A stretch of DNA of 64,000 nt. Origin: Pseudothermotoga elfii DSM 9442 = NBRC 107921 (GTDB taxonomy: Bacteria; Thermotogota; Thermotogae; Thermotogales; DSM-5069). Where the stretch lies: positions 620,001 to 684,000 of the forward strand of contig NC_022792.1 of NCBI RefSeq assembly GCF_000504085.1, read 5' to 3'. The position numbers were made by a program, and so were the translations under genes. The notes below the pieces were generated by a model. It saw only the letters and a list, made by a program, of their open reading frames with translations, did no database searches and had not been told where the DNA came from. Below are positions 17,756-19,344 of this stretch, one piece after another; position 1 is the stretch's first letter, and every line of letters begins with the position of its first letter.

Positions 17756-17783
17756 ATTATAACATGTTACTAAGACACTTCAA
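17756..17783 (-). promoter_or_regulatory. housekeeping-type promoter of the cheA-fliA operon
   Basis: On the minus strand, TTGAAG (17778-17783) and a perfect TATAAT (17756-17761) are 16 bases apart. The box pair overlaps the cinA stop codon and lies 33 bases before cheA. No sigma-28 consensus is seen here, so the kinase and export-gate operon seems to be under the primary sigma factor. Confidence 0.65.
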
Positions 17784-18980
17784 AATTAAATATAATCCAT
17801 ATGCCGATACACGTGATCTGAAGACATTTCTCTGTTGTGGGTAAAAAAGTCTTTGTATATCTTTAATCGATTCGCCTGCTATACAAAAATAAACAGTACC
17901 AACAGGTTTTTTCTCACTTCCACCGGTTGGACCAGCAATGCCCGATACAGCAAGAGCTAAATCGCTTTTCATTATTTTGCGAACCCCTTCAGCCATTTCA
18001 GCCACACATTGCTGACTAACAGCACCATATTTTTCAAGTATTTTGTTTGACACGTTTAAAATATTTCTTTTAACAGAGTTGTTGTAAGCAACAATTGCAC
18101 CAAGAAAGACTTCTGAGGCTCCAGGAATATTTACTAACCTTGAGCTGATCATACCGCCTGTGCATGATTCAGCAATAGAGAGAGTTTGATGTTTCTTTTT
18201 TAGAAGTTTTATCACGGCTTCTTCAAGAGTTATATTTCCATAACCGATAAATTTTTCTCCTGTAAGTTCAATAATTTTTTTTGAAAGTTTCGTTAACTCT
18301 TCGGCCTTTGCTTTTGGGGCAGATAATCTGACTCTCACGCCATCAAAATAGGAAGCCTGAGTTGCTATTTTTACCGAGGTATCGTGCACAATACTGGTTA
18401 TGATCTCGTCTAACTCTGCTTCTGGTATAGAAAAAAATAACATCGACAGTGTTGATAAATCTGGTTGAGGCTTGATCTCGTTCAATGCATTATTCAGCAT
18501 TGGCTCCAATTCCTGCGGAGGTCCGGGGAGCAATACCAGGATTTTCCCCTTATGAAACACTAATTGCCCTGGAGCACTTCCAACATGGTTTTCCAGAATT
18601 TTTGCATTTTCAATTACCATAGCCTGTTTTGCTATGTTTGAAGGGACGTATCTATGGTATTTGGAAATTCTCTTTTCGATTGCTTTTTTGAGTTCTTCGT
18701 TCAAAGCAATTTTGAGTTTCAAAGATTCTGCAACTGCTTCGCGTGTCTTATCGTCTTCAGTTGGACCAAGTCCACCGCTCAGGACAATCACATCCGAATC
18801 ATTCAGAGAATAGTTCACGGCATTCTTGATAGATTCGATATCATCATCAACAGATATTGTTCTAATAACTTTTAATCCAGCTTCAGTTAATTTATAACAA
18901 ATGTATTTTTCGTTTGTGTTCAGGATAATTCCTTCGATTATCTCACTTCCAACAGTTATGATTGAAGCTGTTTTCATCAT
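17757..18980 (-). CDS. cinA: CinA-family protein (nicotinamide mononucleotide deamidase / ADP-ribose pyrophosphatase)
   Basis: 407 residues in two domains: an N-terminal COG1058 molybdopterin-binding-like domain (SGGLGPTEDDKTRE near residue 70) with ADP-ribose pyrophosphatase activity in studied homologues, and a C-terminal CinA domain (SIAESCTGGMISSRL near 265; GIAGPTGGSEKKPVGTV near 340) with NMN deamidase activity. It thus recycles NAD by-products. The start is ATG 18980 (or the adjacent ATG 18977). No good ribosome binding site directly precedes it: an inserted RNA element (18981-19317) separates the ATG from a perfect GGGAGG at 19327-19332. Translation may depend on RNA folding or on coupling to a 28-codon frame ending across the ATG. 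Confidence 0.93.
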   Translation of the reverse strand: MMKTASIITVGSEIIEGIILNTNEKYICYKLTEAGLKVIRTISVDDDIESIKNAVNYSLNDSDVIVLSGGLGPTEDDKTREAVAESLKLKIALNEELKKAIEKRISKYHRYVPSNIAKQAMVIENAKILENHVGSAPGQLVFHKGKILVLLPGPPQELEPMLNNALNEIKPQPDLSTLSMLFFSIPEAELDEIITSIVHDTSVKIATQASYFDGVRVRLSAPKAKAEELTKLSKKIIELTGEKFIGYGNITLEEAVIKLLKKKHQTLSIAESCTGGMISSRLVNIPGASEVFLGAIVAYNNSVKRNILNVSNKILEKYGAVSQQCVAEMAEGVRKIMKSDLALAVSGIAGPTGGSEKKPVGTVYFCIAGESIKDIQRLFYPQQRNVFRSRVSAYGLYLILKCLSNML

Positions 18981-19063
18981 AAACCAGCGCGGGAGACTCC
19001 ATCTTCTTTAAGATGGAAAGGAATGCGCTGTTTCCTCCTTTCCAATGAAATTACATAAACCAC
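18977..19063 (-). CDS. possible 28-codon leader frame coupled to cinA
   Basis: Within the RNA element a frame opens at GTG 19063 (V-V-Y-V-I-S...) and ends at a TGA that overlaps the cinA ATG as ATGA. An AAAGGAGG (19032-19039) lies inside it, followed by an in-frame ATT codon nine bases later (CAGCGC-ATT). Ribosomes ending here could restart at cinA. I do not claim that a peptide is made. The AAAGGAGG is more simply the ribosome binding site that would precede iscB in a complete element. Confidence 0.2.
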   Translation of the reverse strand: MVYVISLERRKQRIPFHLKEDGVSRAGL

Positions 19064-19317
19064 ACAATCACTTCCAATCGTCTTTTGACGATAACTCAGG
19101 GATTATCCCTGTTAGTTGCTCATCCCCAAAGTTAGACAGGCTTGTTATGTGCAGATCACTGTCCCCACCCCTCAGGGCTGTTTAGACCTGCACGACAGAG
19201 CCCGGAACTTGAGCAACATCCCAAGGTGTACCTGTCTAACGTAGCCACTTGTGTGGCTGAGGGTAGTCAACCGGGCTTTTTTCAAGCCCCCGCTTCTACA
19301 GGCGGTGGGTAGTTAAC
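18981..19317 (-). ncRNA. HEARO-like / IscB-type omega-RNA element lacking its ORF
   Basis: A 337-base structured segment, the only gene-free stretch over 300 bases. Read on the minus strand it contains nested perfect pairings: 19231-19240 with 19131-19140 (10 bp), 19211-19217 with 19115-19121 (7 bp), 19188-19193 with 19149-19154 (6 bp), and hairpins at 19284-19289/19273-19278, 19253-19258/19243-19248, 19111-19097 (CAGGG/CCCTG) and 19092-19077 (6 bp, AAAA loop). An AAAGGAGG follows (19032-19039), then a terminal hairpin (19030-18985). HEARO RNAs, now known as IscB omega-RNAs, are described as complex structured RNAs inserted directly upstream of ATGA or GTGA and often lacking the nuclease gene; the 3' junction here is ATGATGA, the start of cinA. 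I assign the family from architecture and junction, not from an alignment. Confidence 0.7.
18985..19030 (-). repeat. terminal hairpin of the inserted element
   Basis: CAGCGC (19030-19025 on the other strand, GCGCTG) pairs with its complement at 18985-18990, and an inner AAGATGG/CCATCTT stem (19010-19016 with 18999-19005) continues it after an asymmetric bulge. Such imperfect subterminal hairpins mark the ends of IS200/IS605-type and IscB-associated elements. Here it lies four bases from the cinA ATG. Confidence 0.6.
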
Positions 19318-19344
19318 AATATTGATCCTCCCTAAGGAATTATA
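19318..19344 (-). promoter_or_regulatory. cinA promoter -10 and stranded ribosome binding site
   Basis: A perfect TATAAT (19339-19344, minus strand) follows the tctA terminator, with a TG directly before it and no clear -35. Five bases downstream of the start region lies GGGAGG (19327-19332), then ATCAATATT up to the element boundary. If the element is removed, GGGAGG stands nine bases before ATGATG, an ideal cinA ribosome binding site. A transcript starting about seven bases past the -10 would begin with AGGGAGGATCAATATT, 16 bases, then the element. Confidence 0.6.

Follow-up and report, generated by a model that had tools for sequence, protein, structure and literature searches.

How could a gene remain translated when a mobile element has landed between its ribosome-binding site (RBS) and its start codon? 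The question is raised by a locus in the Pseudothermotoga elfii stretch analysed here, 64,000 nucleotides (nt) in length and called the window below, where a 337-nt HEARO element of the HEARO/IscB omega-RNA type separates the gene cinA from its own RBS. The element is a stripped-down relic of a transposon that encoded a guide-RNA nuclease. We propose, with a probability of roughly 0.65, that the right end of HEARO/IscB elements carries a Shine-Dalgarno (SD) module that would re-supply translation to the gene behind it, and that the known preference of these elements for ATGA or GTGA would come from insertion at start codons (ATGA) or, for a sister subtype, inside the SD itself (GGAG/GTGA, the slash marking the junction) without silencing the gene.

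A HEARO element between the ribosome-binding site and the start codon of cinA

On the minus strand the native RBS of cinA (AGGGAGGA) is followed by the element and then by the cinA ATG at 18980, so that the RBS now lies 337 nt further upstream of the ATG. The Rfam covariance model of HEARO (RF02033) matches 19317-19111 of this strand over its full length (model positions 1-211) with 147.6 bits and E = 6e-31, compared with a gathering cut-off of 83 bits, and the membership of the element in this family is firm. The 356-nt transcript folds with z = -4.2 relative to dinucleotide shuffles. In three congeners, whose genomes hold no HEARO, cinA has its RBS directly 5' of the start codon and no insert, and a terminator and GTATAAT stand further 5' as in P. 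elfii. The element is therefore an insertion between the RBS and the ATG of cinA.

The P. elfii genome (2.17 Mb, one contig) contains seven HEAROs, all above the Rfam cut-off; these copies, together with the three congeners without any, are what is expected of a mobile element. Three of the seven, including the cinA copy, are solo elements of 332-337 bp with identical ends, GTYAAC on the left and GGTTT/ATGATGA on the right, in unrelated flanks. Three others have iscB-like open reading frames (ORFs) just 3' of the RNA (at 20.2, 829 and 1828 kb), and in the one at 1250 kb the sequence past the RNA has decayed. A further right end, the eighth, stands without a HEARO at 1998 kb. Each of the six complete copies that carry a HEARO ends at RTGATGA, in keeping with integration of HEARO RNAs directly 5' of ATGA or GTGA. 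An adjacent HNH/RuvC ORF, common with HEAROs and not obligatory, is missing at the cinA copy, which has a 28-codon fusion only.

The original prediction, made from the letters of this DNA, had described a structured 337-base segment between the RBS and the start of cinA, with a terminal hairpin, a sequence near its 3' end and an ATGATGA junction. All of these sequence claims hold, the outer limits exactly (hairpin 19030-18985, AAGGAGG 19040-19034, junction GGTTT/ATGATGA). Its assignment to the HEARO/IscB-type omega-RNAs, for which it had asked for a covariance-model check, is borne out by the full-length match, and its description of a solo element agrees with the four HEAROs of this genome that have no adjacent iscB. 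Neither outcome that it named as fatal, a missing model match or a conserved cinA leader without other copies, was found, since the model matched, the genome holds seven copies and the insert is missing from the same gene in the three HEARO-free congeners.

A Shine-Dalgarno sequence and a hairpin at the right end

AAGGAGG, or AGGAGGTG in some archaea, stands 58-63 nt before the junction in nearly all elements surveyed, and AAGGAGG occupies this place in Thermotogota, Clostridia, Spirochaetes and Methanobrevibacter. The layout after it is a few bases, an outer stem, a conserved symmetric internal loop (ATTCC / TCTCC), an inner stem, 4-9 nt and ATGA. Folding of the hairpin gives a mean z of about -3.9. 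The outer stem is diverse in sequence between clades yet remains paired (CAGCGC/GCGCTG, GAGCGC/GCGCTC, GCCGA/TCGGC, GGCAA/TTGCC, TCTGCA/TGCAGA, GGCGG/CCGCC), and a compensatory C-G to T-A change distinguishes the inner stems of two copies, L001 and L004. Among the 46 copies folded, the linear distance from SD to ATG is 51-94 nt, varying because the hairpin is enlarged in some copies; with the hairpin excluded it is mostly 7-13 nt. At cinA the predicted fold reduces 53 nt to 7 nt, a spacing of the hairpin-bridged kind seen at T4 gene 38. The original prediction had mentioned AAAGGAGG and the terminal hairpin and had not recognised in them a relocated RBS for the downstream gene.

We suggest that the right end would act as an initiation module consisting of AAGGAGG, a stable two-tier hairpin, a few bases and the target ATG. 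The solo HEARO derivative has inserted precisely between the cinA RBS and ATG, with the gene's own ATGA as its target motif, and the hairpin would draw the SD to ~7-13 nt of the start codon, thereby giving the gene a new RBS for the displaced one. That the right end of this transposon is a portable, hairpin-bridged replacement RBS appears likely to us. Such a replacement would probably let the element occupy gene starts without silencing the gene; ribosomes may use the relocated SD, and tolerance by the host may be the reason why the element is retained.

Insertion at gene starts

For elements whose ends are defined, the empty site was rebuilt by joining the two flanks. A site was counted as a gene start where the junction ATGA opens an ORF of at least 100 codons and the left flank holds an SD, and the same rule was applied to elements and background. 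Exact gene starts with an SD were found at 32 of the 57 rebuilt HEARO/IscB sites (Thermotogota 11/16 and 10/17; Clostridia, Spirochaetes, archaea and others 11/24), which places the start codon at the junction of about half of the related insertions. The background frequency is 3-4% (30/692 ATGA in the window, 39/1229 in flanking DNA) when measured against all ATGA, and outside coding interiors starts are already common by rough gene calls. A targeting bias for starts beyond tolerance is therefore not supported. What the sites show is that landing between RBS and ATG is tolerated.

Alignments to family models back the start codons. The downstream proteins CinA, CobT, RimO, PurH, a lipid kinase and NpdG begin at model position 1-5, with residue 3 of RimO aligned to position 1, residue 2 of PurH to 4, residue 1 of the lipid kinase and of NpdG to 1, and residue 2 of CinA to 1.

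Two further groups of insertions were noted. A genome of the same order (G041) has a sister subtype (L047, L049, L050, L053) before GTGA within the host SD (GGxG/GTGA), where the 3' end of the element (CGGAG, GTGGAG or similar) remakes the SD; this subtype accounts for the GTGA part of the 'ATGA or GTGA' rule. A genome of the same class (G060) has about 15 near-identical HEARO elements (L062-L076), mostly with an internally deleted iscB (211 residues), inserted before ATGATAAA or ATAATAAA. They form a recently active, IscB-deficient family.

Conservation of the Shine-Dalgarno sequence

The SD is conserved at the nucleotide level. It is coded by GAA AGG AGG (ERR) near the C-terminus of IscB, and the arginine codons at this place, located by protein motif, are AGG in 50 of 55 cases compared with 279 of 1202 elsewhere in the same genes. 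Two archaeal copies encode QEV at this place and nevertheless keep AGGAGGTG, and solo elements that no longer make IscB retain the SD. Within SD-bearing clades, none of 5 copies with a damaged SD is at a gene start compared with 28 of 45 copies with an intact SD (p = 0.012, a value that is too small because the copies are related and a few sites, such as L204/L205, are orthologous). The G060 elements, which precede ATGATAAA or ATAATAAA, have lost the SD and kept the hairpin, and 0/14 are at starts.

Several points weigh against a portable RBS. To the frequency of starts among non-coding ATGA sites and the relatedness of the copies, both noted above, must be added that for 14 of the 46 folded copies the minimum-energy fold also pairs the A/U tails, leaving 1-4 nt between SD and ATG. 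Because the right end has to function in transposition as well, some of its conservation may be for recognition at the DNA level. Finally, the stop-start overlap described below is lineage-specific and is absent from the G034 and G041 genomes and many others.

An IscB remnant and stop-start overlap

The IscB frame of this genome begins with GTG after the RNA (VVYVIS...) and ends in ...LERRxQR...AGL followed by TGA. In the solo copies the middle of iscB has been deleted in frame, leaving VVYVISLERRKQRIPFHLKEDGVSRAGL and the stop codon. The cinA element descends from an iscB-bearing copy by an internal deletion that kept the omega-RNA, 28 IscB codons and the right end. 'ORF-less', as the element had first been called, is correct in that no full iscB is present at the cinA copy and overlooks the in-frame remnant at 19063-18977; the accompanying statement that it 'lost or never carried iscB' has to be replaced by the internal deletion with its in-frame fusion. 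The TGA of the mini-ORF overlaps the start of the next gene at cinA (TGA 18979-18977, ATG 18980-18978), at cobT (1317 kb) and at a GntR regulator gene (1159 kb). An independent in-frame fusion, likewise ending in ATGA, is present in the solo element L059 from another genus (genome G058).

Could this overlap, rather than the hairpin-bridged SD, be what mainly keeps the downstream gene translated? Every complete copy of this genome has the stop codon of its IscB ORF or mini-ORF overlapping the target ATG; copies in Caldicoprobacter and Methanosarcina show the overlap as ATGA, and those in Spirochaetes as TGATG. NTGA stop-start coupling is widespread (PMC12548453). Copies in G034, G041, G075 and many other genomes nonetheless sit at starts without the overlap, and the SD and hairpin are more broadly shared than the overlap is. 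Coupling as a universal rule is rejected because many lineages lack it, and as the main route we find it rather unlikely, if still the most credible alternative to the portable RBS. It could instead be a second route in this lineage, where the IscB frame, even as a mini-ORF, ends on the target TGA; in some lineages the overlap would add termination-reinitiation to the SD.

Two other copies in this genome have distinctive junctions with host genes. At 1828 kb (L005) the element interrupts a glycerate-kinase-like gene at its final codon, and the TA of the gene and the G of the element remake a TAG stop. At 1998 kb (L177) a 5'-truncated iscB element is fused to the end of a glycosyltransferase gene, and the remaining 69-codon frame ends in the ATGA that starts the next glycosyltransferase.

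Transposition, the IscB proteins and other explanations

Terminal hairpins are required by IS200/IS605-type transposases. GGAGG and the hairpin might on this account be a transposon end for a Y1 transposase only, with gene starts occupied because insertions within genes were lost and with the downstream genes poorly translated or not at all. The genome has one Y1 transposase, at 1481632, and a large proportion of the non-coding ATGA sites are starts. The G060, Methanosarcina and L115 elements, however, keep the hairpin without AGGAGG, and GGAGG is thus not required for mobility there. Copies with a damaged SD lie away from gene starts, the geometry suits SD-AUG spacing, and the downstream genes that have the insert between RBS and ATG include purH, rimO and cinA, which are intact and probably important. 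Taken together, we consider a transposon end without a role in translation improbable, more so than coupling.

At the Y1 transposase locus (L176, 1480.6-1483.2 kb) one strand encodes the transposase and a full TnpB, and the opposite strand has a separate HNH fragment of IscB/IsrB-like type; a GTCTCCATCTT...AAGATGGAGATGAATTG hairpin that resembles G060-type ends occurs there twice. Two elements (L128, L133) contain a Y1-transposase-like ORF whose start is overlapped by the stop codon of the element's iscB.

The solo omega-RNA might also be kept because it works as a guide in trans for an IscB made elsewhere in the cell. The RNA retains an intact scaffold, and the host sequence 5' of it would direct it to the empty cinA site: by published IscB logic the 16-nt host leader AGGGAGGATCAATATT would be the guide. 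The cinA promoter, with TATAAT 22 nt 5' of the RNA, could start transcription near the guide and give an omega-RNA whose 5' length is approximately correct; the TATAAT was not scored as a full sigma-70 promoter in a simple promoter scan. The three iscB genes in the genome have all been damaged (265 residues without HNH; 284 with an internal loss; 371 prematurely stopped), and an intact IscB with RuvC, HNH and C-terminal domain, as a functional OMEGA system has, is missing from the genome. The 829-kb gene keeps RRXRR and HNH, but its N-terminus is altered and ~60 C-terminal residues are lost to the stop; HNH or RuvC parts are missing from the other two. Use by a nuclease encoded elsewhere, as the original prediction had suggested, is for this reason doubtful in P. 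elfii, and a working trans-acting guide is the less probable still of the explanations considered so far.

That the element is an ancestral cis-regulatory leader of cinA, as its position in the 5' leader might suggest, is rejected as practically untenable, with three congeners lacking it at this site and other copies preceding unrelated genes. A phage origin was likewise rejected, there being no match among phage records, and a search for plasmid relatives returned weak HEARO similarity in Paenibacillus as its sole result.

Table 1. Features of the cinA locus, in window coordinates.
Feature	Position	Strand	Basis
Solo HEARO element, whole	18981..19317	-	Same two ends in three solo copies with differing flanks; cinA of three congeners without it
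HEARO / IscB omega-RNA scaffold	19111..19317	-	RF02033, 147.6 bits, model 1-211
AAGGAGG, Shine-Dalgarno-like, right end of element	19034..19040	-	Sequence, comparison of copies
Two-tier terminal hairpin between SD-like sequence and start codon	18985..19030	-	Fold; 7 unpaired nt between SD and ATG
28-codon mini-ORF, in-frame fusion of IscB N- and C-termini (VVYVISLERRKQRIPFHLKEDGVSRAGL and stop)	18977..19063	-	TGA overlaps cinA ATG
ATGA target motif, cinA start codon overlapping mini-ORF stop codon	18977..18980	-	Sequence
cinA, 407 residues, intact, downstream gene	17757..18980	-	NCBIfam NF001813, 384.8 bits, over cut-off, alignment begins at residue 4
Displaced native RBS of cinA, host leader AGGGAGGATCAATATT	19318..19333	-	Homologous RBS directly abuts ATG in congeners
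TATAAT, likely -10 of cinA promoter	19339..19344	-	GTATAAT at equivalent place 5' of cinA in three congeners

Comparison with known systems

A portable RBS would offer a concrete account of the unexplained preference of HEARO for ATGA or GTGA. It suggests a way for the ancestors of Cas9 to have survived in compact genomes, namely by occupying gene starts and substituting for the RBS that they displace. A mobile hairpin-bridged RBS would be a compact natural part, testable with simple reporters, and 'ORF-less' omega-RNAs can retain the remnant of a reading frame, which may have a role in regulation.

Weinberg and colleagues in 2009 reportedly found HEARO elements without an ORF, and ATGA or GTGA following the elements. 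The element at cinA resembles HEARO RNA (RF02033) and IscB omega-RNA (Altae-Tran et al. 2021) in its covariance match, the ATGA directly 3' and the existence of copies with and without an HNH ORF. It differs in that, at roughly half of the sites, the ATG of ATGA is a start codon of the host, and in that the end carries an SD and a hairpin. No description of the start-codon ATGA or the SD-hairpin module was present in the literature searched, a search that was without the founding HEARO/IscB papers, so that priority is uncertain. MITE-like (miniature inverted-repeat transposable element) derivatives of IS200/IS605 share the internal deletion, several copies, complete ends and presumed movement in trans, whereas the HEARO derivative retains its structured guide RNA in full, together with an in-frame remnant of the ORF.

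For ATGA/TGATG coupling the likeness is that an IscB-derived frame ends in a TGA overlapping the next ATG (PMC12548453). The difference is that the stop codon comes from the insertion target, and the coupling is therefore created by transposition. The closest parallel for the right end is in T4 genes 38 and 25, where a hairpin between a distant SD and the AUG brings the spacing to 5-11 nt (PMC3014915). As there, the SD is too far from the AUG linearly and an intervening hairpin, known here from predicted folds, would restore the spacing. The span bridged is larger in the HEARO elements (51-94 nt vs 22-27), and the T4 examples are fixed phage genes, whereas the right end of HEARO is a mobile part that would serve any gene on which it landed.
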